A stretch of DNA of 64,000 nucleotides from Telmatactis stephensoni (Eukaryota > Cnidaria > Anthozoa > Actiniaria > Isophelliidae), in the NCBI GenBank assembly GCA_029948255.1, contig JALIZF010001414.1, positions 1-64,000 of the forward strand, written 5' to 3'. Position 1 is the stretch's first letter; each line of letters begins with the position of its first letter. Of the stretch, positions 27,165 to 62,140 are shown piece by piece. Made by a program: the position numbers and the translations under genes. The notes below the pieces were generated by a model. That model saw nothing but the letters and a program-made list of their open reading frames with translations, did not search any database and was not told the origin of the DNA.

Positions 27165-27199
27165 TGGTGTCAGAACTTCACTAAACTCACGCTAATTCG

Positions 27200-27857: not shown

Positions 27858-29205
27858 GTACTGTGGAAGTGAACACAAAAAAGGGAACTGCCCTGCTTAT
27901 GGAGAAACTTGCAGTAAATGCCAAAGGAAAAACCACTTAGCCAAAGTATGTTTGTCCTCTCAAGCTAGTGAACCGGTTACTGGGCCCGGACAGCGCCAAC
28001 AAAGAGACTCAAAGCCTGGAAGAAAAAACAAGCATATTCATCAGTTTGAAGAGAACACCAGCAGCAGTAAAGAAAACAGCGAAGACTTAGACAGCGAAGG
28101 AAGTATCTACAGCATACAAAATAATAACAACAAAGTCAAGTTCTGTGCAAAGGTAATGGTTAAAGCCAACGACAGCAATGAGCCACAACCAATCACCTTT
28201 CAACTAGATACAGGTGCAACTTGCAGCACTATCAGCCTGAAAGAGTACAAAAGCATAACTAAAGAAGAACCACAGCCATCCCTCACCACACTCAAGCTGT
28301 ATGACCAGTCAACACTCACTCCTGTGGGACAGGCAATACTACACTGTACAGTCAATGGAATCACAAAGAGGGTGCGCTTTCAAGTCATCAAAGATGCTCC
28401 AACCTCTCTTCTCTCTGGTAAAGCCTGTCAAGCCCTACAACTCCTGCGCTTCAGCGAGGACATTCTTCATGTAAACACACCTCTTACCAAGGAAAACATC
28501 CAACATGACTATGCAGACATATTCAGTGGTCTAGGAAAGCTCCCTGGAGTCTACCACATCGAGACAGATCCCGACGTTAAGCCCAAACAGAGCAACCCCA
28601 GAAGAGTACCAATACCCATACAAGAGGAACTGAAAAACAAAATAGAGGAACTAGAGCAAGCAGGAATCTTAGCAAAAGTCACAGAACCGACACCTTGGAT
28701 CAGCAACATGGTTGCAGTTAAGACACCCAAGAAGCTCAGGATATGTCTGGATCCTCAGGAACTAAACAAAGCAATTATACGAAACCACTACCCAACACCT
28801 ACAATTGAGCAAGTAGCGCCAAAGTTAACAAATGCAAAGATTTTTACAGTGGTTGATGCCAAAGATGGTTTCTTACAAGTTACACTGGATGAGCCTTCAA
28901 CCTACCTTACGACCTTCTGGACGCCATATGGAAGATATAGATGGTTACGCATGCCTTTTGGGATCAAATCAGCACCAGAGGAGTTCCAACGAAGACTAGA
29001 TGAATGCCTCGAAGGATTATCTAACATCCAAGCCATATACGACGACATCATCATCTATGGAACTGACGACAGTGAGCATGATGCTGCCCTAAGAGCCCTC
29101 CTTGAAAGGTGTCGAGAATGTGGACTAAAGCTAAACAAAAGAAACTCAAGTTCAAGCTCGACAAAGTTGCCTACCTGGGACACATCCTCACAGCAGAGGG
29201 GATAA
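27844..29205 (+). pseudogene. retroelement zinc knuckles, protease and N-terminal reverse transcriptase
   Basis: The frame opens after a stop at 27841. It starts with two CCHC-type knuckles (27853-27951: CKYCGSEHKKGNC and CSKCQRKNHLAKVC), nucleic-acid-binding motifs of the gag end. An aspartic protease active site LDTGATCS follows near 28206. The RT fingers and palm come next (LDPQELNKAI, VVDAKDGFLQV, LRMPFGIKSAP), with a catalytic IYDDIIIYG near 29037 that differs from the usual YxDD. The frame leaves the conserved sequence near 29140 at an AAAAG run, where the second pol frame takes over. Confidence 0.9.
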
Positions 29206-36044: not shown

Positions 36045-39000
36045 ATGGCTGTGTATGTTGTTGGTGTTATTGGCATAGTGGTTTTCTATTTGATAATCCT
36101 TGGTCTTGGCTTATGGGCAGCTAGACGGCGCAAGGAAGGCGAAGAAGAAGCCATGTTAGCAGGAAGAAATATCGGCATGTTTGTTGGTACATTTACAATG
36201 ACAGGTAAGAAGTTGTAAAGTGTTTACGGTAAAACGAACATCGACTAGTTCAAGTTCAAGTCCTTTATTCACACACAAATATAGTTTACATATGTATTTT
36301 TAAAAAGAGAAAAGAATATTACTAAATTTTAGATGAATAAATTACAAGAAGAAATATAACATTGTTTTAAAATGGGGGAGTGTGTGTGGCTGTTGAAGTA
36401 GTGTAATTAACTTCCGAGTCAACAGCTACCCACAGCAACAAGTTACACTTAATGAAATGGTCAAGGGAACTAGAAGTACTAGATTGTCAACTGTCTCATC
36501 TAATTATAATAAGAGACTGTAATGTATCTACGGTAATACGAACATAGACTAGACTGAAAGCAGTCTCCAATTTCCCCTTGAGCGACCATTTTGCCGGGTG
36601 ACCATGTATTCTTAAAACTCGTCTTTACCGAAGCCGGAAGAAAATGTGGGACTGCGATTCTTAAAATCACGTGACTGATGTGTGTAATGTTGTTTGTCTA
36701 TTTTATTTCATTCCATATAGCGACTTGGGTTGGTGGTGGATACATTAATGGAACAGCGGAGGCAGTTTTTGCAGACGGACTCGTTTGGTCTCAAGCTCCT
36801 TGGGGATATGCGCTGAGCCTTGTCATTGGTGAGTACTCTTCTTTGCTTACGTCTATATCCATTCTACTTATTGATATCGATAACTTGTTGCTTTCTTTCT
36901 GGTTATCGTTTCCTTCTTCTCTTTTTTCTTTTCCTTCCTAATTTCCTTCCTTCCTTCCTTCCTTCCTTCCTTCCTTCCTTCCTTCCTTCCTTCCTAATTT
37001 CCTTCCTTCCTTCCTAATTTCCTTCCTTCCTTCCTTCCTTCCTTCTATTCTCACTTTTCCTTTCTCTTTATTGCATCGCGACTTTATCTCTTACCAAGTT
37101 ATAGAACCATTGAACGTGTTGTTTTATTGCTCGTAGGTGGCCTAGCGTTTGCTAAAACCATGAGGAACAAGGAATACATGACAATGCTTGATCCTTTCCA
37201 GCAAAAGTATGGTTTAAGAATGGGTGGTCTACTCTACATCCCTGCTCTTCTTGGTGAGATTTTCTGGAGTGCTGCTATCTTGTCTGCTCTCGGGGCAACA
37301 GTGAGTGTTGTCGTGGGACTGGGGAAAGACCTATCGGTCATCGTCTCGGCTTGCATTGCCGTCTTCTATACGCTGATTGGAGGACTGTACTCTGTGGCAT
37401 ACACTGACGTCATTCAACTCATTTGTATTTTTATTGGATTGGTAAGTATGGTAAACCTCTTTAAAGCGAACTCCAAAGGCTGGAAATAAAGTGTCCGTAA
37501 TCTAGAGGTGTCCGATTTGTAGAGGTTTCATGGAAATGTAAGGAGATTGTCGGGATATGACGTCTGTAGTTTGGAAAGGTTCTCGTTACCCACAATATGA
37601 TAAGGCATTCCTAGTTCAGATCACACGCATAGCTGGGGGCTATAGCTATGTCCCACTCTTTCTAAATAGTTGCGGGTTTTTGATGCCCTGCGATGAAGGG
37701 TCATTTGAGGCATTTTGACAGCCGGACAAACCCAACTAAAAACCTGGCCAATTTCTGGACCAGCCGATATGAAATTAGATCCGTTTAGATAAGACTTTGC
37801 CAATGCCTGGATTAGACGTAATTTGTTAAAACACTAACACACAAGATGTCTTTATAAAGTATCTTTGCTGTTTTCTTTTTCATCGACGCACTGCACTGGG
37901 TAAAATGCTAATATTGAGGCAAAAAAGTCCCGCCCTACCGATTTCCGTAAATCGGCGTGTTAGTGGGTGAGGATCAATGAGAGATAATGGTTATAAGCAT
38001 GGGGAAATTAGTAATTTTCTCCTGCTATAAGTAAACAGGTGTAGATTAATGAGGACCTAATTGTTGTGTCTTCTTGTTTGACAGTGGCTTAGCCTTCCCT
38101 TTGCCATGATCAATAAAGCTGTGACAAAGATTGCTGACACCTCACCCCAGTGGGTTGGTAAGTGGCCAGAAAAATACACTGGAATGTGGATCGACTTTGC
38201 CTTGCTTCTGGTAAGCTTTGAGCTAGATTATAGATGAACATCTTGATACATTCTCATGAATATTCACTTTTCAGATCGTATGAGGAGTGCAGTAAAACGT
38301 AACTCCAACCGGCCTTCGCGGTTTCACATCCCCATATTTCTGGATTTACAGGTCCTTCTACGTGAGCAAGTTTTCTGTGCCGACGATTTTCTCAGTCTGC
38401 GAGAGCAAATTCTATATGACAAATTCTTATGAAATTTGGTGTATTTTCTCATCCATACGAGCAGAACAGTTGCCATGCATAGAGAATTTGTCATAGAACA
38501 TTTTTAAGGGCCTTGTGATCTATTTGACAAAAACCTGTATGAAAGCCGGTTTGTATGCAAATGCTATCATAGCAGCTTTGCTCGTTTCTTGAATACGGAA
38601 TTCGCGCCAAGATAAGGCACGATGGACTCGCGTCAAGAAGTTTGTATTTGTACGAAAATAACGTCTACCATACTGAACCTAAAAGTCACAAGGGCAGACA
38701 GAGTTTTTTCTCACGCTCGCTGGAGACTTCGTTGGATTTCAAACACATCTTTGCTAGCAGGGTATAGAACAGACACCAAATGGTTTACTGGTTTACTGTG
38801 GCCTTTTAAGCGATACATTTTGTTGTTGGCTTATCTGCTCAACCTTGAGGATATCTTAGACAAAGAAAGTAATTCCGTTCTCATATATTTATATTTCTTT
38901 TCTTCAAGATGCTTGGTGGAATTCCATGGCAGGTCTATTTTCAGCGCGTTCTGGCCTGCAAAACAGCTAAGGTTTCAAAGTTTTTGTCGCTAACAGCTGC

Positions 39001-42000
39001 TGCTGGATGTATAGTCATGGCTATACCTGCAGTACTAATCGGAGCAGTTGGAGCATCAACTGGTAGGTAACTAGGCGATAAGGAGTCTTCCACTTTGCAG
39101 TGGCGGATCCAGGATTTTTCCAAGGGGGGTTCCATTTCTTAAATCCAGCTGTGTATAATACTCTATTGTTTGGTCAATGTTTGACAAAAAATGGCTTAAA
39201 ACCTTCAAGGGGGGTTCCGTGGAACCCATGGAACACCCCCTGGATCCGCCACTGCTTTGAGGAGTACTTTTGATTGAAAGGGCAGGAATGTACAATTCAA
39301 GAGTCTAAAAACGCAAACGGCTTCACTCCACGGAAAGAAGAACTAATTGCCCACCCGACAACGTTTTTGAAACAGATATACAAGTGTATTGTCGTCAGTG
39401 TCATTTAAGCTTAAAGCACAACTACAATATAACGTGCGCTCTAATTGGTTGAATAGACCCCTTGCACGACGCGTGACGCGTGATGTCAGAGCAGCTCAAT
39501 CTGATGGACAAAACAAAAGACTTTTGCTCCTTTGAGAATTAGAATCAATTGTGTTGTCCCCCAGATTGAGCTGCATTCCAACGTCCTGCAAGGAGTCTAT
39601 AGACCTTTTCCAGTTTGGTGATACCGCTGCAAAATTAAACAACAAACGCACAAACACAGGGTCAACCTCGAATCAACGTAAATTATTCAAAAATACCAGT
39701 GAGAGAAAAGCATAAATTGTTGACAAAGAACAACACAACTTGAGTTTACTCCCGTGGGTCTTTCTTGAAAGGGAGGCTAACCCTGTATAAATGCGCCTTT
39801 TGTCAAGAAGCTCAGCGGTCTCTAGTAATTAGATACTGGACTATTAGTGTGCGCCCGCGTGCGTCCAAACTCAGTGGATAGCATGTTGACATGATGTGTG
39901 TGTGTTGTTTTCACCCACTTCAATGTACTATTCTTATTCAAGAAAACTAAACAGCGTCCTCACTACCTGTGTTACATAAAAGAAATGCTCAGTAGTTAGC
40001 TGTGCGTCCATTGATAATGATTCACTTGGTCGGCTGGTCTCTTGCGACGTTTACGCTCTTTCGTGCTTAGTAGCCACCCGCGTGCATCCATAATTAACTA
40101 AATAGTGTACGCTGACTGAGAGTTGACCATTACTTAACTATTGGTAATATATAACATTTTTACTCGAGGCTACTTGTATAGTAAACCGAGTATAGATTTG
40201 TATTACGGTCGTCAAACAAGCAAGGGTAAGTACTTCATGGCTGAATGCTATACAGTCGTCTTCCTAATATTTACCCTAAACCTAACCCTAAGAGCGACTA
40301 TGTGGACATTCAGCCATGAAGTATAAACCCAAGTAAGTATGTAAAATTACCCAGATGGCCTTTGCGACCAAGCTTTGTTACTCGGGCTTCCTCTTAGCGT
40401 GAATGAACGCTAACTTGTATAGCGTCTTGATTTATTTGTAGATTGGACACAGACTGGGTTTTACGATCCACCAGCCAATGGCTCCAACATTAGTACTCCT
40501 ACCAAACCTGAACGTTTACTTATCCTTCCCATGGTGCTGCGTCATCTTACACCTAACTACATCTCCTTCTTTGGACTTGGAGCCGTGTCTGCAGCTGTCA
40601 TGTCGTCAGCAGACTCAAGCATCTTGTCTGCTTCAAGCATGTTTTCGTATAATATTTATCGATTGATTTTTAGACAAAAGGTAGGTGATTTTCTTTCTTT
40701 TAGCGATAACATTTGTAACGTAATCGTTGCACGCAACAAGACAGTTTTAGGGTGTCCAGTGATGCACCTTTTTACAACATTACGTGTAACTGACTTGAGA
40801 GTGGAGCCAAGTCCCACTCTTGATAAAGGATAGACAAGTTTACGGTTGTATGTTGCTCAATGTAGCTGAATGGACCACCCTGTTAAAGTAAAGTCTTATT
40901 ATTATAATGTCAGCCTCGACTTTGCGAAACTTCGCGCAAAAATCCATGAAAATAGAAAGCACTTGCTTTGTTTATATACACATCCCTGGCCCATTAATGT
41001 TCATTTCTCGCCTTTTCACTGGTTGTCATACCAAAACTACAAAGAACATATTACGCACAGTCGAGGCTGACATTGAACAAGATATAACTGTGCCTACTGT
41101 AATGATAAGATCATGTCTGGGACAAGATGCCGCAGCGATCGCTATTTCTTTGCTAGACAACGTTGCAAAAAATTGTTCTTCATTCTACTTCTACACGAAA
41201 CATTGCATGTAACAATCACAAGGATGATCACAAGGTGCACTTTTACTGTCATACGGAAAAAGGTCCTTCGTTTAAGGCCGAGATACACGATGCTAGGTTT
41301 CTGCAATTTTTTTTCCTGCAACGTTGCGCGCAATTAACACAGGTACAAACACCGTGTGTCCACCATGCAGCATGTTGTACTTTTGCAATGTTGCAATGTA
41401 CTTACATGTTGTACATGTTGCAAAAGTACAACATGTTGTTGTTGCATGTTGTACTTTTGCAATCTTTCTGTAATGTTGTGCGCAATTGTGGAAAGGTGGT
41501 TAAATGCGTAACTGCTTGCAACGTTGCAAGAAAGTTGCTGCATCTTGTCCGTGTATTTACTTTGGCACTCAACCACTTAGCTTCTCGCGTCTTCCTTTGT
41601 TAAACCTTCCGTACAACCAAAGCTCTATATAGACATACAGTTTGCTGAAACTATATTACTTTATAAGAATCACCTCTGTCTTTTTCTTTTGAAAAACTCG
41701 TATGTCTTCGATGAGGTGCACACTAAAAGCTCGGCCCTGTTCCGTTTCAGGCATCAAGCCGTGAAGTATTGTGGGTAATGCGTATTGCCATATTCATAGT
41801 TGGCGCCATAGCAACCGCCATGGCTTTAACAGTTCAATCGGTCTACACACTCTGGTTCTTGTGTAGTGACGTGGTTTACGTTACACTATTCCCACAACTC
41901 TGTTGTGTGATCTACTTTGGCAATACCAATACTTATGGATCATTCATTGGGTTTATAGTAGGCATCGTACTACGAGTTCTTGGTGGCGAGAAAGAGCTTG

Positions 42001-42263
42001 GGATCCCTGTGGTAATAAAGTATCCGTATTACAATACCACCGATGGTCAGCTGTTTCCATTCCGCACACTTTCTATGCTCTGTGCTTTTGTTAGCATTCT
42101 CCTAGTCTCATATTTGCTCCGGCTTTTGTTTCTCAAGAAGATTTTGCCCATTCACATGGACTTTCTACGCTGCTTTAGAGAGTACGAGCTGCAACCCACG
42201 GAAACTGTCGAGATTCCGACCATTGATAAGAAAGATACTAAAGCCGATAAACTATATACCTGA
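36045..42263 (+). CDS. SLC5A7: high-affinity choline transporter-like protein (SLC5 family), 534 aa, seven exons
   Basis: Exons are 36045-36204, 36721-36828, 37137-37441, 38085-38210, 38909-39062, 40442-40680 and 41751-42263. All junctions are GT-AG with matching phases (1,1,0,0,1,0), totalling 1605 nt. The protein is a sodium:solute symporter; close CHT1 signatures are [16 protein letters not shown] (exon 2), [20 protein letters not shown] and [14 protein letters not shown] (exon 3), [15 protein letters not shown] (exon 5), [20 protein letters not shown] (exon 6) and [12 protein letters not shown] (exon 7). About 12-13 membrane helices are expected. CHT1 takes up choline with sodium and chloride at cholinergic terminals. 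The cytosolic tail is short (534 aa against about 580 in vertebrates). An acceptor-like TTTCATATAG directly before the ATG suggests a 5' UTR intron. Two MITEs and a CTTC microsatellite lie in introns. Not every SLC5A7-like cnidarian protein need prefer choline. Confidence 0.95.
36931..37046. repeat. (CTTC)n microsatellite in an intron of the choline transporter gene
   Basis: CTTC runs interrupted twice by AATTTC, between exons 2 and 3. Confidence 0.95.
39098..39254. mobile_element. MITE, 157 bp, CAGTGGCGGATCCAGG ends, CTTTG target duplication
   Basis: The terminal inverted repeats are CAGTGGCGGATCCAGG and, at the right end, GGATCCGCCACTG. The flanking 5-bp CTTTG is repeated at 39093-39097 and 39255-39259. 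A GGGGGGTTCC word occurs on both sides of the interior. The ends look hAT-like, although hAT duplications are normally 8 bp. It lies in intron 5 of the choline transporter gene. Confidence 0.9.
40906..41074. mobile_element. MITE, 169 bp, 16-bp perfect terminal inverted repeats
   Basis: AATGTCAGCCTCGACT at the left and AGTCGAGGCTGACATT at the right are exact reverse complements. No coding capacity. It lies in intron 6 of the choline transporter gene. Just beyond it, 41330-41470 is rich in locally repeated ACATGTTGTACTTTTGCAA words. Confidence 0.85.
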
Positions 42264-44291: not shown

Positions 44292-47200
44292 TCAATTGTA
44301 CATGCCTGTTTGTATTTTTGTTTTCCTGCATATCTTGTTCAATACAACAGCTTGGAAGCAAAGGCCACAGACAACTGCTAAAGCTAAAATACTCGACAAC
44401 AGTAACATTACCAGGAAGTAAAGATCGGTTGATGGGTCCAGGAAATCAATCTTGGCTTTTTCTGCGAATAAAGGAACATCCTGGAAAATAACACACAATT
44501 TCACTGCATCTTGTTTTCCACGTAGGCACATCGCATCATTTATCTCACAGGGTCTAAGAACAAGGGTGCAAAGAGCATTTGGGTTACCCGTGATTGCTCC
44601 GATTAAACATTCGCTGTACGACACGTGATCGTGACATTTAGAATAGGGCGTGATCGGGTGTAAAATGACGTCCTGGGCCCAGTTGTTCGAAAGCGAGCCA
44701 GCGCCAACTCATGATTAAAATTATAGAAAACCATTGGCGTTAGCCCGCTTTCGATCAACTTGCGTCACGACGTTGTCACGGTAGTCACGCAATGACAACA
44801 TGATTTATTCGTCATATGACGTCCCGTTCTTGCCTCGTCTTGCTAAATCTGGCTATAGTTAAAAGTATGAACCAAGCTTCTCCATCTCAACATAAATCCA
44901 TCATGTAGGACCGGTCCTAGTCTCCTTCGCAGGCAACCCCTTTAACTCCTTGGGCTTCCTTTGTAACGGTTAATGGGCTTCCTTTGTAACGGTTATATTG
45001 ACCGTGAGGGGACTGAGAGCGAAAAAGGGGAAAAAGAGAGAGGAGGAGTTAGGCTCCTTCCCTCCTCTCTTCATTGTCCATCCTCTCATTTCTCCTAAAC
45101 AGGAAGCCCAAGAACAAAGAAACCCACAGGAAACCCACAGTGATGCCCGCAGAGGAGGCTAGATCGGTCCGGGAGTAATGGGGCCAATGTTACCTCTGAT
45201 GTTACCTTAACTGATTTCTCGTAGTTCTCGTCTTTGTCCATTTCCTTTAGGTGCTCCATTGCATTGCGCATGCGACTATGTCGTGTATCAAAATGTTCCT
45301 CAAAGAAAGAAAAAAGTCTCCTTGCCTCTCCACCAATCAGAACTCCGTACGTAAACTCATGGTTGATAACCTTTGCAATCCTGAACTTTGACCTTATGAA
45401 TAAACTTTTAAAATACCAAGCAGTGTGTAGGTCAACAACTGCCACGTCTATTTGGTCTTGTGCAAGAGCACTGTATAGGGACTGGACGTCTTGGTAGACT
45501 GATGCTGGAAAAGTAACAAAAAATTACAATCGTGAACAAAACTTCATGCACAGGTTACTCCTTCATTGGGTATCCCGTGGTGATGGGAAGAGAAAAATCA
45601 ATCCGCCAATGGTGTAGTAACTCATGGATATTGACCAACCACGAATGACCACAGGAAGCCCAAACAATACAATTTAGTGAAATAACGAGTTCTTCTTTTG
45701 AAGGAGAAAATAGAAACGGGTAAGGAAACCTGAGGCGTCCGTCCTGCCACAGGAAGCTCAAAAGTCAAAATGACTTGCCTTGTATATCACATGTATATGT
45801 GAGTTTCAACAGACTTTTTCTTATACCCCTATAGCTCTATCCATCCATCTTAATTTTGTTGTCACCCAGAACTAGTGCTTACAAAATAATAGAATCCAAA
45901 TGGAGCTTAAAGCTTACTGAAAACATTAAACTCAGGCTCTTAACGTGATTCGAACCCACGACCTTTGCGAACCGATGCAATGCTCTACCAACTGAGCTAT
46001 CAAAGCCACTGAAAGCAGGTCCATGTGTAGGTTCAACTTTCTCAAAGAACTTTGAACTCTTCTAACCCAAAGTCTTGAACTTATCTAGAGCGTAATCTAC
46101 ACAAATCAAATAATATCTGGTCACCATAGTTACCTTGTTTATAGCTACTTGCAATTTGATTGGCTATTGTTTGTTCGACCGATCCTTCGACTGCTGCTAT
46201 CTGATTGACGTAAAACATAACATACATTAGTTTAATTTCGTCACCGTTGTCTGTGTACCATTCTTAAAAAGCTCTTCAGATTCCGCCCCACCCCTTCTAC
46301 CTTCAGTATCTCCCTGAAGTCATGGTCTATGTTTGGCAGAATTCGCTTAGTTTCGGTTATCTCGACCCATCTCGGTCAAATGAGACTCAAATCTAGTCTG
46401 TTTATCGCCAATGTTAATATCACAAAAGTATAATAACAAACTAACATCCATCGGTTATCAACTTACACGTGTTCCACTCTCAACGTCCATGTTCTCTTTT
46501 ATAACTGTTATAATCAATGACGTGGTCAAAGCACCAGTCAATAACGAGCTGAGTATAATACCAACTAAAGACCATATCACGGCAAACGTGCGACCTGCTA
46601 TGGACTTTGGAACTCGATCACCATATCTAGAAAAAAAAAACATAAAAACTCAGGTGCTATATGCAGCTCCACCATCCTTTACAATCAATAACAACAATCT
46701 CGAGATTCCTGCAGGCCTGTGTGGCAAAATCGGCTGACAGCTCAGGCTAGGGATCCGAGACGCTAATAGAACTTATTCCAAGGTGAAAATTTATCATGAT
46801 ATATGCTCTCTGTTTCCTGGAATGTCGTTTAAATAAAGAAAAGTACAACAACAATGACAACAACGACGACGACGACGACGACAACAACAACAACAACGTT
46901 TGTCTTTAGTAGCATTTATAGCAAAAGCAAAACAGTCCGTGCTGCAATAATTGAGTTTTAGGCCTTTGTATTCAAACACCATTTGAAATAGAGCCCTTAA
47001 ACTCACCCAATAGTTGTCATGGTTACAAAGGACCACCAAAATGCTTCTCGTACTCCTAGTACAAAGGATGTTGGGAAATGATCTTCGTTCTCTGTGGAAT
47101 CCTTGAAATTATATCAAACAATTCAAGACTAAACATTTTGTGAAATTGTACTTTACACATAATGAAGTCTAAGCAATTTGGCTCATCCTGATGCCTGGAA

Positions 47201-50200
47201 ATGGCTCGACCAGTGGCACCTGGCTTAATAACTTGAGTAAAGAGAAACCGCTAGCCCTTAAGACATCTGTTTAGAGACAGAGCACTGAAAGAGCACGCCA
47301 CTCAAACACTGGAAAATTATGTCTACTTCCATCAGTTGGAAATTGCAATTTCTAGCAAATTTCTAAAAAGCTACTATTGAATTTCACTAAGCTGTTGGAA
47401 ATGAAAGTTTCTACTGAACATTTTGCCCATTTATAACTGTTAAACATAAGTTGGAAATTTTGTTTTCCAGCAAATGTCCAACATATATATTTCTAGCAAA
47501 TTCCAAACGGTTAAAAAATATGTTGGAAAATTCATACCAACTAGTGACCAACATTCATATCAGCTAACCTTTAGGAGTCCCCCCTGCATATCCCTTGCAA
47601 ATAAAGCAGCAAAGGCATGCTGTTAAATGCCACATAAAGAGAGAGATGCCTCCTGTTGCAAGTCAGAACGCACTCACTACCTCAATATTGTACCACAAAC
47701 TATACATATGACTTACCAGAAACCATGTAATGATGCCTGCTAAAAATGCCATAGCAATGTTGATAACCACTAAAGGCCAGCACTGGAACACAGACCAGGC
47801 CAATGTACGAGCATATTTCCCTGGTGATTTTTGCTTGGTGACAAAAACAAACCCAGGAACACTGATGAGTGGAACGTACTCCATGTCTTGAGCTTCCATG
47901 GAATTTCTCCAGTCTGTGCTGGGGATCTTGAAATCCACTTGCTCTAGGCTTGCTAGGCTTTCAGTTTGATTTAGCTTTGAGCCATTGGTTTTGGACAGGT
48001 TGTAGATAACTCTTGTAGTGTTATAAGCCTTACAAACACCGCATACTGTCTGGACGATGTGTGATAATGTTCTTGGTATCAAGCCACCAGGTAAAAGGTA
48101 ATCGTTTGTAATATTGATGGTATAAGGTGGTTTTAGAAACCATCGGCTTGCAAAAGATGCTGGACATCTGCAGGTTCCTAAAACATTAGTAAGAGAGTTG
48201 AAAGATATTCTACAATTTTCTGTCACGTATATTATGCCTCCCTCCTCTAAATATTGTGGGAAGACATTCATTATGGTTTGGTATGTGCGCGAAGTTGGGA
48301 AATACAGATAATTACATACCCAAATTGAAATACAAAAGTTTTTTTTTTTTTAGGTTAATTTAAAATGGGCCTTTTGCATCAACAGGTCACGTGATACAAA
48401 ATCCGCCATGTTGGATGGCAAAAGAATGTCACAGTATCCAAAACAAAACGACTTCAATACGGTCAAGCTTAGCTTGTCTTTGCTTGAGAGGTTTTATTGC
48501 GTATTTTGACATATAGTACGGTGGAATGTTCTTAAAATGTTGAAATGCTCCCAACATTCAACAGCGTAGTATCCTTATAAATACCTGCCAAAATGACGTT
48601 GCTGCGTCGAAGAAGGCCTTTAGTTCCCATGGCAACTACTTGAACAGAAACCACACTGAATGGTTCGAGCCCCTTTAACACATACTGCGACACATCTTTG
48701 TGAAGTACTTTTACTAATGTACTAGTATTTGAGTCAGTCTTTGTTCCAACAGATATAAGCCTTGCTATAAGGCGATAGGCTTTTAAAGTGGGCAGTGTTG
48801 GTAACTGTGGAGTCCATTGGAGATGAATAGATGACGGACTTGAGAAGTTATTTGCTGTCAGATTAAGTGATCCTTCATCGATGACTGGAAATAATTACAA
48901 TAAAACTTGTTGAGAAGAATTGCAATGTGTGCAACCAGGAGAGCACAACCACTTACCACTAGGGCTGGTCTTTCGAGAGACATGGTAACATTACAGGCCG
49001 TTAACTTACGCGATAAATTTTACAGATGTAATGCGAAAGAATGTCATGCACATAACGCAACGTCTCATTTCTCATTTCTTCAAACCTTAAAGCGTTTGCC
49101 ATATACTCGTGCATAACGCAATGCGACGTCATTGTGGTTAGCTTATATAGAAAAAGCTAGAAGTCTTCTCTACTTCGTTCAGTAGTAAATTTATGATTCA
49201 TGAGGGGTAAGAAGAGCAATATTTGTTCTTCAACTTAATTTGCAACGCAACCATGACGTTGCATGCACGAAATGTCGAACAGAAAGTTTTGGTCGTCTAA
49301 ATGGATCTATCCATACCAGAAGCGTTGTACTGAACCTTGCAGGAATAGACACATCAGGTTCGCTGTCGTTAGCAATCATTTTTAATTATAACCCTTATAT
49401 AAATCAACTTCCATTAAATGATTACTTTTCCGTGCCGCAAGGTTATCGCTTGAAGGCCAGTACATAAGATGCTATTCTTCTTGCAACAATAATGACCAAC
49501 CCTGCAGCATCTGTGTAAAACGTTGCCGAACATTTCATAAGTAGAACTCGACTCAACACGTGCAAATGTTGCGCGTTGTAAGAAACGTTTGCATGCAGTA
49601 GAGTTACATCATGAGTTAAGCCTCAATAAAAGTTCAACTGATAATATCTCACCTTGCTGACTGGGCGTTAGGACGTTTACGCAATTACTAACGTTTCCGT
49701 ATCCTTTTCTAGTGTAGGCCAATATTTGAAAACAATACAGAGTGGAATGGTTGAGTCCAGATATAACAGTTGATAAGTTAGAGGCTGGAATTTCTACATT
49801 AAATTTTACTAGACTTGAGTCATTCAGTGATTGGTAGGTTATGCGGTAACCAATGACAACGCCATTTTCAAATCCCTTTGGTACTGGTTTCCATGACGAT
49901 ATTGCTGACCAGGGGCTTGTAGGCGTAACCCGTAAAGCCATGGGAGGCATGTCTGGTACTAATTAACAGAATTAAAGACAGTACATTAAATAACACCATT
50001 TATTCTATATTCTTAAGTGTATGAAACGGTATAATGATATGCCCTAACGAGCAAAAAAAGTAGTCTTACAATATTTTCTTGAAAATATATTTTCCATATA
50101 CTTGAGAAAGCCATAGACCAAATCTGCTAACGTGCTGCTATGTATGTTCCCACCAAATCCAAAACCACTGGAAATAAGATTCTTTGTTTTTTCTCGCTTG

Positions 50201-53090
50201 GAAATTTTTGGAACAAAAGTTACTATTCCCAGAGATTTTGAATTTGGTGGAAACGTACATAGCAACGCGTTAACCGATTTGGTCTATGTTCACACTAGAA
50301 ACTTGTTACATTTAATCACAAAGAAACATATTTTGTAAGTTGGTCGCATCTCGATCATTCAAATTCAAAGACACCGCCAGTCTTTTTGAGATCGGCTATA
50401 TCGACGAAGATCAATTCATGAAAACATCACTAGCGTGTGGAACAGTGTTTAGTCTGCGCGCTTGTTCCTTTGACTTAAATCGCTCAGTAGACTAAGGCGT
50501 ATATTGAATCTCCATCCACTCATGCTTGAAATCTGCCTTGTAACTTTGTTTTAGTTTTGTAACTCTTATTAACTAAAAAGGTGCGTCTTTCAAAAAATAC
50601 GATTATAACCTATCGAGCCCGCATCTTTTTTGTACGTTAAGGCCTACCATCCGCACTAAAACTGCGTTTTTATTTTAAGGCATAAAAACGAAGAAAAAAG
50701 TTGCGTTTTCAAATTCATCCGATTTGTACTGACGTAGTCTAAACTGCTTTAAAACTCACCGTCTTCATCAGTCGTGACGAGCACACAATCACTAGAATTC
50801 CCTTCGCCACTGAGTGTAACGACAGACACTCGAGCACAATAAACAGTAAACTTCTTTAGACCAGGAAACGTCACGCTAAAAGTCGTTGCGTTACACATCA
50901 CGGCGTACATAGTGTTATTCAGAGTTACGTGATAGCTTATTACGTTAGCTGAAGATAACAGCGACCACGTGATTTTGACTGAAGTGGAACTGGTGTTATG
51001 GGCACTGATGTTTTGTGGTGGGTCTGGAAACACTGTTGAAAAATAATAACAGTAACAATAATAGTTGGTTCAGGTACTGCCCTGAATAAAATAATCAACA
51101 AATGAATGAAGTAAATGAAAATTGCTAACTTAACTAACTAACACAAATTCGACTCATTTTCTTTCAATCTCTAGATCACCTAAATTCAGTCAGTGTAGTT
51201 TTTGCTTTTGAGCGGTAACAAAACCAGTGAAATTGTACATTTGAAGAGTAATCAAAAACTGCGCAAAAACCAAATCTGCCGGATTTAGTAGCGAACTAAA
51301 TCATCATGACTTTAATTGCATAAAGTTAAGGGTGAACAGCGGTATATTGTAAACCACTGGAGAAGGATTTATCCGACTGGTAGCACTATCCATTCTTTTT
51401 ACAAAAACTTGTTCAGTTTACTTTTTTTGATATATCACATCTTCCCCTGGCTATACCCATGACTGTCTAGACTAGATAAATAAATAAATATAATAAATAA
51501 ATCAGGGAAGGAAAGAAGGAAGGAAGGAAGGAAGGAATTAGCTTCGAAACAATCATTTACTTGCTAATGGCTTGCAAGGACACAACCGTCTCTCGCCTGG
51601 ATTAGCTACTTGCGAACACGTGATCACATCCGGGATATTCTTGTAACCAATGCATTCTCCAGTCAAAGACCCACTGGAGGGATAAAACGCTGGGTGATCC
51701 GGGTACTTGTATGTTGGTGAGCGACCACTGGCCAGACAAGTGATATTAAGTGCATTATAGACTGGCAACGTACTAGATGATGGGAAATCATGACCGGTTT
51801 TTGCACATGCGTACAAACCCATCGCTTTACATGCTTGATCACATGACTCCCAGGACTGAGTCAACACGTACTTAACACCTTAAAAAAGTCATCAAATCAT
51901 TCTTTTATGTTTCACTCTTGTTGAAAATAATTATCTTTATTGATAAAATTGGATACCAAGAGAGTATCATGAAACTACTCTCCTTTTTCAAAACCTTCAG
52001 CAGATAAATTTGACATGTTTGAGCTAATTTTAAAACTCACTCAATTCTCTTTTTTCCCCTCGATTCAACAATTTACCGATTTCATATCGCGCTTGTAGCG
52101 AATGCATAGTAGTTATACAATGGTTTGGAGTGGCATACCGTGGAATATCCCACGAATCACTTGTATTTTCTAGTATACGCACGAGCCTTGTGGGATATCC
52201 ACAGTATGCCACAAGAAACCATTGTATAACTATTTTATCCCACGTCAGAAAAAATACAGCAAATTGTTCGCAAAATATCATTGGAAGGATCAGTGGAATA
52301 CCGCCGAATATACAACGGCTTTCCCGCTTTCTGATTGGCTGTATTTTTTCTGATGTGGGATAAATGGTAAGCTATTCAAGCCTCAAAGCGGGACAGCACG
52401 TCACATCAACATCACGTGACTGTGCCTCAACTAATTATACCATCTGTGAATGCTCAATGCAAAAATGAACGAAAGGACGATGGTAACATACCAGTGCATG
52501 AAATACTATTCCCACAGACTTTCGACTCATTCCAGGCTCCTATACTGGAGTTTGTGCTAACGTTAGCCAGTAGAGGCCTGGCTGCGCAGGACCTTTGCCG
52601 TGTTACGTGACCCAGTCCACATGATGTGCTACAGGATGACCATGGTGCCCAGTTTCCTGGCAGATAAGAACTAGCGTTCCCAGAAATCCCTGCGGAAGTG
52701 TTCACAAAGTGTTCATAGACGGCTTTCAAAAATGGCGGCTCATTGTTCACGAGAACGAGGCCAGAAAGGCCTCAAAATTATCATGGCATCAAATGACTCT
52801 AAGTATATCCTGTAAAATGCACCGAAAATAGTTATTTCAAAAGGAAGAGGAACACATCATCTTTGATAGAAATAGAAGTTTCGCCACGCTTATTTTCTGT
52901 TAACAAGGCCTTTGTGGCCTCGTTCTCATGTACTAGGCCGCCATTTTTGAAAGTCGTCAATACGCATCATATAAGATTAAATCTCCCTTAGCTTAATTAT
53001 GCATGGGCGTTACCTACATCGAGCTAGCCTCGCCTGTTCTTCCTCGCAGTCCTCGCAGGGAAGAGGTGTGCAATAGTTTTACACAAGCTA

Positions 53091-53140
<50 letters not shown>

Positions 53141-56100
53141 CTGCTCAAGCCAGCTACATATTCGCCATTCAAATGTTAAAGTTCGACTGGAATCATTTAT
53201 AGACGCGCCATTTAAGTTAGCTAGGCTCTGTTCCCCAGCAGTCGTCCTCTAAAAGATCCGGGATTCAACGCGATTTCCATACCTCTCAAATGGTAGATTT
53301 TAATCAATGAGGATATAGCAATATGAGCTCCAATAGCCCATTTTCTTGTGACGTGCCATCATTGTAGGGCCGTTGACGTAACAAGTATTTTTTTTTAAGT
53401 TTGAACAGTTCAATTAGCGATTTTGTCGCTTACTATCAGATAAATGTTGTTTTATTCTGTATTTAATTTATAGCCCATTGATGTTTAAAAATTGGATCCA
53501 AAGCGAGGTTTATAAAGAATTCGTATCAACCTGGGTGCGCAACCTTGAGAAACGGTCTATTTCTTGAACCAGTCACATTCAATTTTAAGTGATTTTTTAG
53601 CTTTTTTAGAATCATAAATGTGGTGAGTGTGGAATCACCTGGCATGTAGACGATAATGTTGTCACGTGATATATGGTGCCAGCTGTTTGAGCCTGGTTTC
53701 TTTACAATTATTTCCATGAAGTCGGTGCCCGACCCGTCAGAATGAAGGACATCCAAAAAGTAAGGCTTATTTTTATCCAAGTAGACTTTGAAGATATCGT
53801 TTTTCCTAGAGTTGATTAAAGAATCAAATCAAGTGATCAAGGGACCACTGAAAATATTACTCATCAAATTATTATTACTATATTAGTAATTGGTTAATAA
53901 AATTTTCATTTACTTTATAGACAGCGGACACTTTGAGACACTCAGTCAATCAGCATTCAAATGTAACCAACCATCCATCCAACAGAATATTTGGAAATCG
54001 GTAGATAGAACTTTATTCATGTGTCAAAATACATTTAGCTGAAGACCGACCGACCATTGTTAATTCGATTCGTCAATCTATCCACGAACTGATTCATCTA
54101 AGCAAGCAAACATGCAACCACCAACCAACCCATATACAACCAACCAGTCCATGCAAACCATCACCGGACAACCAACCAACTAAACCATGCCATCAACGTA
54201 CCAACCAACCAACCGAACCAACCAACCAACCAACCAACCAACCAACCAACCAACCAACCAACCAACCAACCAACCAACCGACCAACCAACCAACCAACCA
54301 ACCAACCGAACCAACCAACCAACCAACCAACCAACCAACCAACCGACCAACCGACCAACCGACCAACCGACCAACCGACCAACCGACCAACCGACCAACC
54401 GACCAACCGACCAACCGACCAACCGACCAACCGACCAACCGACCAACCGACCAACCGACCAACCGACCAACCGAGCCATTTTTTAAGAGGGGGTCAATAT
54501 ATTATATTGTATAGATTTTAGCTTACCACTTGTCTGAGTTAAAACTCATGACTATTTTGGATGAATGGCGTAAAGAAACCTCACACTCCCAGTTACACAA
54601 AGCTCTAAATTCAAATACACCACTTAATGACGTCACGATATACGCTCGTAACCGCTGACCATATCGATTGCCGTAGTTCATCGGTACTTTAAAAGTTGTG
54701 AGGGTTGTGACGTAAGTCGGGTTGTCAGGGAAACGACTGTCTGACTTCAGATCATTTAAAGAACCAGGGGAGCCAATGTTTAGCCAGATTTCGTCATGAA
54801 CACCTTTGATCTCTGCATGGAATAATTAATAAGTACCATTGATTTGGAAAAAACTACACAAAAGTAAGTTTGATATTGCACTGGGGCGAATTGGAAACGC
54901 AAAAGTGTTATCATAATGAAGGTGATTTTCTGGTTTACAGTAAGAATATTTCAAAAGCGCCTTGCATTCTTTAAATGAGAAAAATAGCTAAAAATCATGA
55001 CTGAACAGCCTTAGGCCCAGTTCAGACGTCGAACTTTTGCCGCGTCGAATCTAATAGTTGCATTTTGTAGATTAGAAGTGCGGCTTCTGAACAAAATGAA
55101 TTTGACAAATTTGATTCAAACTGATTTTTTCAATTTAATACTTAATCAAATCTGTCAAATATAATAGGTTCAGACGCCGCACTTCTCATTTACAAAATGC
55201 AACTATTAGATTCGACGCGGCAAAAGTTCGACGTCTGAACTTGGCCTTAGTCCTCCCTTTAATGTGAAAATACTCTGCGATGCAAAGCCACCGCCAATGC
55301 CAACCATCGCTATCAGTTCAAGATGTAATATGTTACGCGCAACGTTTTGTTGCATGCAAAAGTAAAACTCGATTCCATTCTAGGACCCCTATTCACAAAG
55401 CGTTTATAATGACTTAGGAGCATAGAATAGTTTTCGTGTGACTGTGAAAACGGCACAGACACGGCACAGTTACGACAGGAATTTCGAATGTTTTTGTAGA
55501 TGTCACGTCACACGGAACACGGTCACGGTACGGCGTGGTAACGGCATGACACGGTCACGGCACGGCGCAGTCCGTTTCACACTCATACGAAAACTGTTCA
55601 CTATATGAAATCCTAAATGGTGATGGTTTTCCGAGAATTTACAACTAGTCATATCCGAGAGCCAGTCTCTTTTAATATTTAAACTCCTCTTGTTTTTGTT
55701 GATTTTCTTTGTGCAAACTCCCTTTAGTTTATTTTTATTTATTTACAAAACTTCCACCTAAAAATACATAATAATTGAATAAAAGTAATAATAAAAAATG
55801 GAAATATACTACAATGGTGAGGGACACGCAACAGAACTAGGCCTCCAATTAAAGCGTGCCCTATGAATGAAAATAATCTACACTATAATCATTTTACTGC
55901 TAACAAAAGTTCGTCACTCACCATCAGGGATGCAAGACACTATATCGTCTGTCGCTAGGACACTTTGAGGGAAGAGTACAGCAAAGACAACGAATACCTG
56001 CAAGCGGTGAAATCACTCATTAGTGGCGGTTATAGAGAGCTTATAAGCTTCACCTACACGGTAGACGACAAAAAGGATCATCCGACTTCTTTTGCATTTG

Positions 56101-57519
56101 AACGTTGCCATTTCAACGCGAAGGTGGGTCCTTTCCAGTTTGCTGTTAACGCGAAGTCAGGCACATGTTTAAGTGCCAAACGCGCAAATTAACGCCAGCC
56201 GCGAAAAAGGCTGTAGATTCCTCTTTACTTCCGTCTACCGTGACTTCAGAATAAGACACGAACTGATCTGGATAAACGATTCCTTTTTGTTCCAAGCTAG
56301 ACGCGAACTGACAAAATGTAAGAACAGCTCAGGGCTAGTACAGTTCCTCGCTTAGTTGGGTCTTAAGACAAAAAGTGACGCTTGAGAGCTAGGTAATTCG
56401 AGTCTTGCTTAAGTCAGTTTCACTTTTGAGATTAAGATACGTTTTATGTAATCTAGAGAAAATGACCCAGCTTGAGGACCGAATTTATGACTCAGCTTTA
56501 TAGAGGACATGAATTTATACTTTTTATCGACATGGTAAAAAACTTAGTCAAGTATCAATTAAAGGTATATACGTATAATGTAGATCTTGTTTGATGAGTT
56601 AGCGAAAGTATTAAGACCATGTGACCGTATTATTCATTTTATTTTTATTTTTTTCAGAAATGTAGTGATTGTCTTCTGACACAAATAGGATGAGAGACAA
56701 ATTTTGTTAAAAATCATGAAAAGTAAAAATACATCAACATAAACAGAATTAAATGAACGAATCGAAGGAAGGAAGGGAGGAAGGGGGGAGGGAGGAGGAA
56801 GCAAGGAAGGAAGGAAGCAATGAACAAACGAAGGAAGGAAGGAAGAAGGGATGAGAGAAAGGAAGAAATCAATGCAAGAAGGGAGGGTTATTCAGGTAGG
56901 AAGGAACAAAGGAAGGAAGGAAAGGAGGGAGGGAGCCGGGAAGGGGGAAGGAAGGAAGGAAGGAAGGATGGAAAGAAGGAAGGAAGCAAGTAAGCAAGGA
57001 AGGAATGAAGTCAGCAAGCAAGGAAGGAAGGAAGAAATGAACGAAGGATGGAAGGAGCAAACGAACAAAAGAACGAAAGAAACAAAAGGAAAAACAGTGG
57101 ATTAAGCGGGACAAAACAAGCTAAGATTACTTGCTAAATGGAATTCCTGTGGCACCAGTTTGAAAATACCGGCCTACTGCACTATACTGCAGAGAGCGGA
57201 CAGTTAAGGGTATAAGCCCATGCCAAATTATACCTTGCGGAATTGATATTCCATCCGAGAAGATCAGCATAGAAAACAGTTTAGTTACTCTACGATTTCA
57301 TGGGGCAAACCTTGTACAAACTGTTATCTTCTTGTTATGCATCACCTCATATAGTATTAGAGCAATTTTCCTTCTACTTAAGGACATTTAAAGAATATAG
57401 GGTTTTAGGAGAACTAATTTTATTAGCTCGTAACACCCCTGCAGCTGATTAAAACTATAAATAATTAAAAGTACTTTGATTCTTACCTTGTAAAAGCAAA
57501 GAAATGAGTTGATCGACAT
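44292..57519 (-). CDS. chimeric adhesion receptor-channel: PA14-TSP1-FN3x3 fused to an iGluR-like core with a TTIGYGD potassium filter, 1123 aa
   Basis: Fifteen coding exons in order: 57519-57487, 55997-55922, 54812-54527, 53805-53531, 52656-52492, 51878-51561, 51032-50760, 49958-49653, 48884-48585, 48246-47717, 47101-47007, 46626-46467, 46200-46134, 45504-45206, 44480-44292. All are GT-AG with agreeing phases and total 3372 nt. A signal peptide spans exons 1-2. A PA14-like domain (about 37-220; [15 protein letters not shown]) precedes one TSP1 repeat (224-278; [12 protein letters not shown]), a Cys-rich module (279-384) and three FN3 domains (385-677). Then come an S1-like lobe, M1 (about 833-854), a pore loop [15 protein letters not shown] (to 889), M3, an S2-like lobe (about 940-1075) and M4 (about 1082-1105). 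The helix order is that of ionotropic glutamate receptors, while the filter is that of potassium channels, as in bacterial GluR0 and rotifer AvGluR1. M3 has [10 protein letters not shown] where animal iGluRs have SYTANLAAF. I could not place the ligand-binding Arg. The weakest junction is the exon 4 donor (GTTGAT). The ligand is unknown. Confidence 0.88.
44675..44762. mobile_element. small MITE, GGGCCCAGTTGTTCGAAAGC end
   Basis: The left end GGGCCCAGTTGTTCGAAAGC is matched imperfectly by GCTTTCGATCAACTTG at the right, with GCCAACTC/TTGGCGTTAG words inside. It lies in the last intron of the receptor-channel gene. Confidence 0.7.
45830..46010 (-). mobile_element. tRNA-derived SINE candidate
   Basis: On the minus strand the 73-base head (46007-45935) has a pol III A box (TAGCTCAGTTGGTAGAGC) and B box (GGTTCGAATCA). 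Its acceptor and T-stem pairing is damaged, and an unrelated tail follows. A functional tRNA is therefore unlikely; a SINE head fits better. It lies in the intron between exons 13 and 14 of the receptor-channel gene. Confidence 0.6.
46845..46906. repeat. (CAA)n/(CGA)n trinucleotide repeat
   Basis: AACAACAATGACAACAACGA-type triplets in the intron between exons 11 and 12 of the receptor-channel gene. Confidence 0.9.
50108..50292. mobile_element. foldback element, about 185 bp
   Basis: AAGCCATAGACCAAATC at the left pairs with GATTTGGTCTATGTTC at the right. The arms share GCTATGTATGTTCCCACCAAA/TTTGGTGGAAACGTACATAGC. It lies in the intron between exons 7 and 8. Confidence 0.85.
52104..52355. mobile_element. 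two overlapping inverted repeats (compound foldback)
   Basis: The first pairs AGTAGTTATACAATGGTTT with AAACCATTGTATAACTATT (52104-52240). The second pairs TATCCCACGTCAGAAAAAAT with ATTTTTTCTGATGTGGGATA (52236-52355). They meet at about 52236, suggesting one inserted at or in the end of the other. It lies in the intron before the TSP1-to-Cys-rich junction. Confidence 0.85.
53096..53138. repeat. (CT)n dinucleotide repeat
   Basis: An uninterrupted CT run in intron 4 of the receptor-channel gene. Confidence 0.97.
54200..54474. repeat. (CCAA)n / (GACCAACC)n repeat
   Basis: A CCAA tetranucleotide array changes at about 54350 into a regular 8-bp higher-order unit, ACCAACCG. It lies in intron 3 of the receptor-channel gene. 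It is open in several frames because the repeat has no stop codon, so those frames are not genes. Confidence 0.97.
55011..55249. mobile_element. Harbinger-like MITE with TTA target duplication
   Basis: TTA at 55011-55013 and 55247-55249 flank an element starting GGCCCAGTTCAGACGTCGAA and ending with its near-exact reverse complement. Longer internal arms contain GCCGCGTCGAATCTAATAGT. TTA with GGCC ends is typical of PIF/Harbinger. It lies in intron 2 of the receptor-channel gene. Confidence 0.9.
56764..57090. repeat. (GGAA)n-rich purine tract
   Basis: GGAAGGAA/GAAGGAAC-type sequence, nearly all purine on the plus strand. It lies in intron 1 of the receptor-channel gene. Confidence 0.93.
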
Positions 57520-59253: not shown

Positions 59254-62140
59254 ATGCCAAAACAGACGCATCGACGATTTAATGTTGGATCTTATATGAA
59301 AGCAAAGAGGGGTATTTTGAAAGAAATAGCCGAACAGAAAGCCAAGATATCAAAAGAAGTCAAGTGTGAACAACAAAAGCTAAAGCGATTGAACGACAAG
59401 GTAAAAATATGTGTTCAAACAATATTGATTCGAAGCTCACGTGTGCCAATATTCCATTACTATAAAGCACGCTTTGTCTACGAATTTATCTTTCTATTTG
59501 CGAGATATTTTTGGTGGTTTTACCCCTTCATTTAGAGTACGTAATTGTTAGTTTCCTTTCTGATCATAAAATGCCCCAGTGTTGTTGTATTTTACGAACA
59601 AATAGTAATCTTTGATAACGCAATCGTTGTTGATTGATTGTAAAATTCTCCTTACTATGACCCCACATGTTATTGATATTTCTTAGGAGATACTTAGAAA
59701 CGATCAGTCGGAATAATACAGCTTTTTATTTCCTTCACAGGAAAATGCAATTCGCGAGCAAACTGTTGTGGATAAATCTTTCCAAACACCACAAAGACAG
59801 CAGGTACTACGTAGGAAGTTAGAAATAGTGTAGTTGTGAGCTTTACAGCACAGAATTTGCTATATAAATTTGGCCTAGTTAGCTGTTGTTGTTGTTGTTT
59901 GTGAATGTCTGTTTCCAGCTAGAAAATAATAAAGAATTCAAACAGCTTGTTTTATTTTTTTTATAAATATATAATTTAAATTATTATTGATTTTATATAT
60001 CTTTTTCTTTCCTTTTCAGGAGCTAACAAGAGTACGTGTGTCACCAACTTCACTGTCAAACAATGCTGTATCATCTAAGACAGCTGAGCGTCGAAGGAAT
60101 GAAACACTTTCATTTGCTGAAAAAATACATGGTGCAACAAAAAGCAATAAACGCCCAGCAGTTGAAGGTTTATTTGATACTCTCCAAAAAAAATGCAAGA
60201 CTAGTGAGTTGGGGGAGCTGGTGCTTCAAAATAGTAAGGTTACAAGCTATGTAGTTAGTAACATCCAAAAAAAAGAAATTAGTGAATTTGAATCTTCTAG
60301 CTTAAACAAAATTAGAAGCATAGCAGTCTATTATAATTCTGGAGTGATGGGAAAGAGAAAATATCAAGCAGTGAGACTTGCCTCATCAATGATGCCAAGC
60401 AAGAGAAAGAGGGGAGGGAAGACTGCTATAAAGTATTTATCAAGTTGTACTATACCAAAACTTTTTACTTATAATAACCTCATGAAAGAGATAAATGATA
60501 TTAATATTGGTAATATTTATTCAGTAACTGATAGATTCTCATCAAGCATTGAAGACGAAAGTATATGTGGTTGTTTTAGAGATTTACGTGAATATTTACC
60601 AAGGCTTGCTAGTTTCTATTTACAAACAAGAAATGATTCACTTAAGTGGTTTGGGCAGACTGAAGGAACGTTTATGGTTGCATTTGGGGGGGATGGCTGT
60701 CCCTTTGGCAAAAATGAAACAGCTTGTTCCTTTCTTGTTAGTTTTCTGAACACAGGTAAGAGAGTAGCTTCAAGTAGTGACAATTTTTTAATCTTTGGAG
60801 CAAACTGTGAGGAGAACTCTTTGCTGGTAAAACAATACATACAAGATTTTTGTAAACAGGTTGCTGACATAGAAGGTAAAGTATGGGAAATAAATGGTCT
60901 CCATGTTACTTTTCATTTTCAAGAGCTTCCTAATGACATGAAAATGTTGGCTATGTTGGGTGGGGAGCTTCCCAATTCTGCAACTTATTTTTCAACTTTT
61001 GCTGATGTTAACTACAATGACTGTGGTGACATAGGAGGTAAGTTTGGCTATGATGATAAATGCAAATGGAAACCATGGAATTATGAAGAAAGGCTTTCTG
61101 TCTCCAAAAAAGTAATATCTTTCAAAGATTCCCTTAAATTGAGTTTAACAGACAAAGTAAAAAGATCTAAGGTGACAGAGTTTATAGCAAAACAAAGGAG
61201 CCGTCAAGAGTTTGAACCACTTGTGGGGAATTTAATTGACAAAGCTCATGTTGAGCCTCTTCATCTCAAAAATAATGCTTGGCAGTACTTCTTTAAAGCA
61301 CTACTCAAGGAATGTATGGCAAAGACAAGACTCTTACCATCAATGAAAACCTTTGCTGATATTCCAAGTGACACATGCTTTGCACGTGTAATAAATGCAC
61401 TGCAGTACGAGGTCAAGGCCAAACGTGTAGCAAAAAGAGTGCGAAAGTGGTATGACGAGACGCAGGGGAGCAAAGGTGATCTTCAGTATAGGTTTACTGG
61501 AAAAGAATCCCGCCTATTTTGCCACAGCTTCATGGTACTCATCAAGTACTTGAGTAGAGATGAAGACAGCTTAAAGCAGAAGCAGACAGTTTACATTGGT
61601 ATCAGGCTGAGAGACTGCTGTTCTATTTTTAACCGACTAGAAACAAAACCAGAAGAGCTAGACAAACTACAGAGGTGTGCCATGGAATACTTTTATGCAA
61701 ACAAATTATTCCTCCCCTACACAATAAACCCAACCATCTGGACCTTAGGACATGTCCTCCCTGTTCATGCTAAGCATGTGTACAGTATGTACAATCAAGG
61801 CCTCTTAACAGTAACAATGGAGGGAAGGGAAGCAAAACACATAGCCTTACACAGGTTGAGCTTAAATTCAACAACCAGGACAAGGTGGGAAAATATTTTC
61901 AGGCATGAATTTGTTATGCTTATCTGGCTCCCTGAACAAGGCTATGAGTCCACTCCATACACAGCAAGCAAAGAATTGTATATTCCAGCTGCAATCTTCA
62001 AAGACAACAAATACTGTTATTGTGGTTTAGAAAAAGCAGATCCTGCAGACACCCATTGCTACTTCTGTGGTAACCCAATCATGTCACTCATCCATGAAAG
62101 TGTGGATAACAAATCTTATGCCCCAGGTATTATAGTTTGA
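59254..62140 (+). CDS. transposase-like protein of unknown family, 776 aa, three exons
   Basis: Exons are 59254-59400, 59741-59803 and 60020-62140, all phase 0 with good GT-AG sites (TTCACAG and CCTTTTCAG acceptors). The N-terminus (about 1-70) is basic and partly coiled, with Lys/Glu-rich sequence. A central block (about 300-500) has FGGDGCPFGKNETACSF, NFLIFGANCEEN, ELPNSATYFSTFADVNYNDC and later AHVEPLHLKNNAWQ. These spaced Asp/Glu/His blocks look like a DDE-type nuclease core of transposons, although the family could not be named and the catalytic triad is not proven. The C-terminus ends in a CxC...CxxC zinc-binding-like motif (CYCGLEKADPADTHCYFCG). No terminal inverted repeats were found within the window, and the frame is fully open, so it may be a domesticated host gene or a large intact element. 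Its downstream flank is far more A+T-rich than the rest of the window. Confidence 0.72.

Follow-up and report, generated by a model that had tools for sequence, protein, structure and literature searches.

Relatives of the ionotropic glutamate receptors (iGluRs) that carry a potassium filter are, in the literature covered, bacterial proteins and one rotifer receptor; papers given here by PMC number are cited for the parts of them that were covered. In GluR0 of Synechocystis and the bacterial GluR0-like receptor channels (Group 1 of PMC2950845), a pore with a potassium filter lies between the lobes S1 and S2. GluR0 has neither an amino-terminal domain nor the last membrane segment, M4, and the iGluR pore is inverted relative to that of Kv channels (PMC6385376). 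AvGluR1 of the rotifer Adineta vaga, an iGluR relative from an animal, combines a potassium-type filter with eukaryotic iGluR architecture (PMC12332018) and is activated by amino acids (PMC12226733); GluR0 and AvGluR1 are both named as potassium-type iGluR relatives (PMC12332018, PMC12226733). Here we describe a gene on the minus strand (57519-44292) of a 64,000-nucleotide stretch, the window, from the actiniarian Telmatactis stephensoni (contig JALIZF010001414.1, positions 1 to 64,000). Judged by its sequence, it most likely encodes a potassium-selective receptor channel that would hyperpolarise the cell.

As in GluR0 and its bacterial relatives, the pore of the window gene contains a potassium filter and is located between S1 and S2, and both pore and S2 can be aligned with theirs; unlike them, it has an adhesion head, none being described for GluR0, and the bacterial rows keep an S1 arginine. 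AvGluR1, compared by description only, is not described with a PA14, TSP1 or FN3 head in the covered parts of PMC12226733 and PMC12332018. Metazoan iGluRs (AKDF, epsilon, NMDA) share the order S1-M1-P-M3-S2-M4 (PMC6307864, PMC12226733), but theirs have the SYTANLAAF motif and the S1 arginine, to which the alpha-carboxylate binds. Five iGluRs from the same genome lack GYGD, in agreement with what an earlier note on this DNA, the sequence-only reading, had said of ordinary animal iGluRs; the genome also holds ordinary iGluRs with STYTANLAAF. Kv potassium channels share the filter and pore helix, whereas the window gene has no visible voltage sensor, has a signal peptide and extracellular modules, and matches Kv pores less well than those of the GluR0 type. 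We consider it quite probable that the product is a GluR0-like receptor channel to which an M4 has been added, with a potassium filter and an adhesion head, ligand-gated and hyperpolarising, and that it belongs to a large anthozoan family.

Pore and channel core

Pfam recognises the pore as Ion_trans_2 (E 4.9e-14). Lig_chan reaches 25.9 bits, under its cut-off of 30.8, which the pore of one paralog exceeds (31.6 vs 30.8 bits). The best PDB sequence matches of the channel are Kv4 and KCNQ (43 bits), as would be expected if a pore of ordinary potassium-channel origin, unrelated to iGluRs, had been fused to an extracellular protein; the bacterial comparisons make this origin very improbable. With tblastn, two matches were found among 72,556 plasmid records, each of them a Rhizobium GluR0-like gene; one was then used to scan prokaryote genomes and led to 53 loci. 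From these loci plus L001, 50 GluR0-like proteins were read, five of which have GYGD in the pore. The 45 others (set L001, L002-L049) do not; L001 itself has ASTGH at the place of the filter, yet keeps SBP_bac_3 and Lig_chan.

In phmmer comparisons on the PDB scale, with bit scores covering 45 of the 50 bacterial rows, the five GYGD proteins score far higher than Kv4 and KCNQ (64.7-77.8 bits; best 77.8, 7.5e-21), and most of the non-GYGD proteins (39.7-58.9 bits, 40 of 45 scored) are also above 43 bits, two being under the best Kv. Pairwise pore scores against the window gene agree with the GluR0 type: the five GYGD bacterial rows reach 130-154 and five other bacterial rows 101-125, whereas five potassium channels from its own genome stay at 78-91 and five iGluRs from there at −3 to 30. 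The likeness also extends beyond the pore, with hhalign giving one alignment to the bacterial GluR0-like proteins from M1-P-M3 into S2 (Prob 98.6), and the S1-S2-M4 topology is not that of an ordinary potassium channel. The GluR0-type pore with a potassium filter, proposed in the sequence-only reading, is thus borne out, and no potassium channel in the PDB comes as near to the channel core by sequence as the best bacterial GluR0-type receptor channels do.

A voltage sensor S1-S4 was looked for and not found: there are just three hydrophobic segments besides the signal peptide, and the Ion_trans match is confined to positions 128-231 of 241. In a pore tree, 17 family rows fall on one side of a branch (81/63, weak), and the family rows are apart from iGluRs (99/99) and from potassium channels (100/100). 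The deep order of the tree is without resolution, a point that the ordinary-pore explanation may claim for itself, and retention of the filter, its loss and regain, and transfer from bacteria are therefore not told apart.

Exon structure, second copy and gene family

The gene was rebuilt by hand as 15 exons with GT-AG borders and consistent phases, open to the stop codon, near which an AATAAA is found downstream. The exons, all on the minus strand, are as follows.

57487..57519, minus: exon 1 as proposed, start of the signal peptide; doubtful, no counterpart in the second copy
55922..55997, minus: exon 2, hydrophobic core of the signal peptide; 100% identity in the C253 copy
54527..54812, minus: exon 3, first part of the PA14-like module; Photobacterium intermediate, PA14-like exon at C352
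53639..53805, minus: exon 4, second part of the PA14-like module; Photobacterium intermediate
52492..52689, minus: exon 5, TSP type 1; Pfam TSP_1, 1.2e-6
51561..51878, minus: exon 6, Cys-rich module; sub-threshold likeness to the C-terminal end of Glyco_transf_18
50760..51023, minus: exon 7, FN3; Pfam fn3
49653..49958, minus: exon 8, FN3; Pfam fn3
48585..48884, minus: exon 9, FN3; Pfam fn3
47717..48177, minus: exon 10, S1 and M1; acceptor common to 20/20 family loci
47007..47101, minus: exon 11, pore helix and TTIG; gene model, paralog pore halves
46467..46626, minus: exon 12, YGD and M3; gene model, paralog pore halves
46134..46200, minus: exon 13, start of S2; hhalign alignment to bacterial GluR0-like proteins
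45206..45504, minus: exon 14, S2 with the conserved Asp; family profile, Asp conservation
44292..44480, minus: exon 15, M4, short tail and stop; gene model, hydropathy

Fifteen phase-consistent exons had been proposed before, and they are retained here with two reservations, the acceptor of exon 10 and the status of exon 1. With the earlier acceptor at 48246, the product has 1,095 residues and TTIGYGD, one codon of which is cut in two by the intron between exons 11 and 12, occupies residues 855-861; with the acceptor at 48177, which we prefer, it is 23 residues shorter (1,072 residues) and the filter is at 832-838. The motif itself stands, its first-given position (883-889) does not. A phase-1 AG occurs at exactly the place equivalent to 48177 in 20/20 family loci (the C253 copy included), two bases ahead of a T/K-C-x-C motif in all 20, and in 10/20 a stop lies at most 17 codons upstream of the acceptor. 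The common AG and the nearby stops place the start of exon 10 at 48177, making 48246 the less likely choice. For exon 1, a search of 1.5 kb in the second copy yielded no counterpart, which leaves the gene start and the first residues of the signal peptide unproven. Hydropathy gives three hydrophobic segments after the signal peptide, with M4 at 1055-1073, after S2; S1 carries sequons. A long array at 54200-54480, located between exons 3 and 4, repeats short CCAA/CCGA-like units in tandem and produces many overlapping blocks in blastn of the second copy.

In the extracellular head, Pfam finds three fn3 stretches (E 2.5e-23) and TSP_1 (E 1.2e-6); PA14 is not found directly in the window protein. 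Exons 3 and 4 together match a Photobacterium sequence (27.6% identity over 91% of the query, E 6e-7) that is itself PA14 by Pfam (28.7 bits, cut-off 24), and it is through this intermediate sequence only that their PA14 likeness is suggested. The Cys-rich exon 6 has no PDB match and resembles weakly the C-terminal part of Glyco_transf_18 (E 0.016, below the cut-off). The order signal peptide-PA14-TSP1-Cys-rich-FN3x3 of the sequence-only reading can be kept in this sense, apart from the unsupported exon 1; of the Pfam families it named, Ion_trans_2, TSP_1 and fn3 were recovered, while Lig_chan stayed below its cut-off and PA14 was reached indirectly. Its statement that the iGluR amino-terminal domain has been replaced is consistent with the Pfam search, where no such LIVBP-like family is among the matches up to E 1.

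A second copy of the gene, either a haplotig or a recent duplicate, is present on contig C253 of the same assembly, with exons 2-15 in order and 96.9-100% identity over the matched parts. It has AG before each of exons 2-15 and GT behind exons 2-13. Exon 14 is one codon shorter there, with GT behind it and in frame, and exon 10 has a single 9-base gap, also in frame. Between the window gene and this copy, dN/dS is 0.29 overall (ectodomain 0.34, channel 0.26); these values rest on about 44 differences and on a calculation in which the copy's exon 14 ran one codon too far. The gene is real: the retention of exons 2-15 in the second copy, together with a dN/dS of 0.29, is beyond chance.

The window channel as query found 106 matches in the 483.5-Mb genome, among them ordinary potassium channels; 99 of 250 candidates were scored. 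With the S1-M1 exon of one paralog, 38 matches were obtained at about 36 places by our own count, near-identical copies included, and 31 of the 38 span at least 140 of 156 residues in one frame. The second pore halves found all have YGD (27 rows of overlapping loci) and the first halves all end in TT[VIL]; the halves were found by likeness to a filter-bearing query, and this count is not unbiased. Fourteen other S1 loci were scanned with Pfam in an upstream frame picked by eye: FN3 passes the cut-off within 1.5 kb upstream in 12, one has an fn3 that falls short of it (20.3 of 25), and one has CUB and Ig in its place. Family member L086 (G000:C310) carries CUB and Ig upstream of S1 and no FN3 in the frames scanned. 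At paralog C352, three fn3 and a PA14-like exon precede the same channel core; the exon, not named by Pfam itself, has 35% identity to the PA14-like part of the window gene (E 1e-16, in a 12-kb search), and TSP1 and Cys-rich matches were not found at this locus. Several members, the one at C655 for example, look minimal by eye, with a hydrophobic start directly before S1 and without adhesion modules.

Such minimal members would also suit two adjoining genes, with exons 1-9 coding for a secreted PA14-TSP1-FN3 protein and exons 10-15 for a channel on its own, as would an AATAAA within intron 9 and an in-frame stop shortly past the exon 9 donor. Intron 9, however, measures only 407 bases (338 with the acceptor at 48246), no signal peptide is visible by eye in exon 10, and the phase is 1 on both sides, the phase-1 acceptor being common to all the family loci. 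With FN3 just upstream of S1 in most other loci, and the PA14-like exon and three FN3 at C352, we hold a division into two genes to be highly unlikely. The recurrence of FN3 and PA14-like modules upstream of the same core in paralogs and the second copy mean that the union of adhesion head and channel core is hardly a gene-model artefact, as the sequence-only reading had assumed in treating the locus as one gene.

The S1 and S2 regions and a proposed mode of action

The S2 family profile (ten rows) aligns in register with the bacterial profile (score 28.4, E 0.00086); none of 200 column shuffles reaches this score, the best giving 20.4, and the acidic residue, an Asp, is kept in 10/10 family rows. 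This one profile test supports S2 as a putative binding-protein lobe with an acidic ligand residue. TIGR01096 (Lys/Arg/Orn binding protein) matches S2 at E 0.0017 in the window gene and 0.027 in one paralog, a result tempered by unrelated models at E 0.0085-0.09 for other S2, S1 and control strings. The proposed order S1-M1-P-M3-S2-M4 therefore holds for the pore, the three segments, M4 and, by the profile test, S2, but not for S1 as a recognised lobe. In S1, MAFFT sets PP, G and R in register with the bacterial rows, which is no test of homology, and the S1-M1 family profile aligns with the bacterial one with its best stretch in register, at a level that is not significant (Prob 3.1, E 0.014); the structure model of S1 has a pLDDT of 48.9.

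Several observations weigh against a GluR0-like ligand-gated receptor. The window S2 alone scores 20.2, against 20.3 for the best of 60 shuffles, hmmsearch with single S2 sequences is not clean, and a fold search on the binding domain decides nothing. None of several profile and sequence searches identifies S1 as a ligand-binding lobe. The bacterial GluR0-like rows keep their S1 ligand arginine (13/13 in alignment A2); MAFFT sets an R of the window gene (TDWR) against it, but R occurs there in 1/20 family rows, and in a different placement of the window gene the column holds Met (our own reading). With the arginine so rare and Met in the other placement, a classical amino-acid ligand for the window channel is doubtful, and the ligand may not be a classical alpha-amino acid.

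The absence of the arginine from nearly all of the family, the unrecognisable S1 and the differing heads of its members (FN3, PA14, CUB, Ig) would also be accounted for by a leak, contact-gated or mechanically gated potassium channel, in which S1-S2 would be no more than a vestigial spacer, the pore being gated by adhesion modules that are anchored in matrix or on a neighbour. The acidic residue and the pattern of S2 are nevertheless kept, and minimal-looking members (by eye) retain S1-S2 without adhesion modules, which makes this alternative rather unlikely. For the ligand-gated receptor channel, which we favour, the following mode of action may be proposed. Four subunits would form the channel, each with three membrane segments and a re-entrant pore loop in which the potassium filter is intact; PA14, TSP1, Cys-rich and three FN3 modules would make up its outward-facing head. 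The signal peptide, the S1 sequons and the three membrane spans would put S1 and S2 outside the cell together with the head and leave the tail within it, with the pore loop then inverted relative to Kv channels and oriented as in iGluRs. Ligand gating is inferred by analogy with the GluR0 plan: an extracellular ligand would open the M3 gate by binding to the S1-S2 clamshell or by way of the head. Given the potassium filter, potassium would leave through the open gate and the cell would hyperpolarise.

Surroundings of the gene and possible significance of the family

On the plus strand, next to the channel gene and tail-to-tail with it, exons of a sodium:solute symporter are found at 36998-42260 (Pfam SSF 38.1, 25.7 and 18.3 bits, the last below the cut-off); we take it to resemble a high-affinity choline transporter. 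Also on the plus strand are a weak 7tm_1 match at 26217-26546 (21 bits, below the cut-off), perhaps a piece of a GPCR gene, and a retroelement at 27185-31310 with reverse transcriptase, RNase H and integrase core, presumably of the Ty3/gypsy type. A 720-residue open frame at 59975-62134 (plus strand) has no Pfam match up to E 0.01 and has Cys pairs near its end; it is perhaps a transposase. The same genome gave 30 GFP-family matches, in keeping with an anthozoan cnidarian.

The sequence-only reading knew of no described animal family with this domain order. This agrees with the literature searched (including PMC2950845 and PMC1876816, mostly without subscription papers, and apart from cnidarian protein databases), in the covered parts of which no paper was recognised as describing the family. 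No such cnidarian group is described in the covered parts of PMC6307864 and PMC12226733, and the term GYG is absent from their main texts. The survey of PMC6307864 required at least 4 of the 9 SYTANLAAF residues; the M3 motif of the window gene, LLTGALTTS, shares 2/9 (our own count on the hhalign alignment), and the gene would have been missed by that filter.

The architecture suggests that these adhesion-headed channels are receptors that silence the cell when something is bound outside. More tentatively, and as a possibility on the unlikely side, they may belong to an anthozoan family not yet described, made up of dozens of inhibitory ionotropic receptors that sense contact or matrix, in which a GluR0 core was kept or regained, duplicated and given varied heads (FN3, PA14-TSP1, CUB-Ig) while the amino-acid site was lost, recognition of cells, microbes or matrix then hyperpolarising the cell directly. 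If true, a large and diversified animal family would show the potassium-filter form to be a functioning class of receptors rather than a relic. Such a family would provide fast inhibition by an iGluR-like protein, with adhesion modules tied directly to an ion channel, and would be relevant to the loss of the potassium filter by animal iGluRs.

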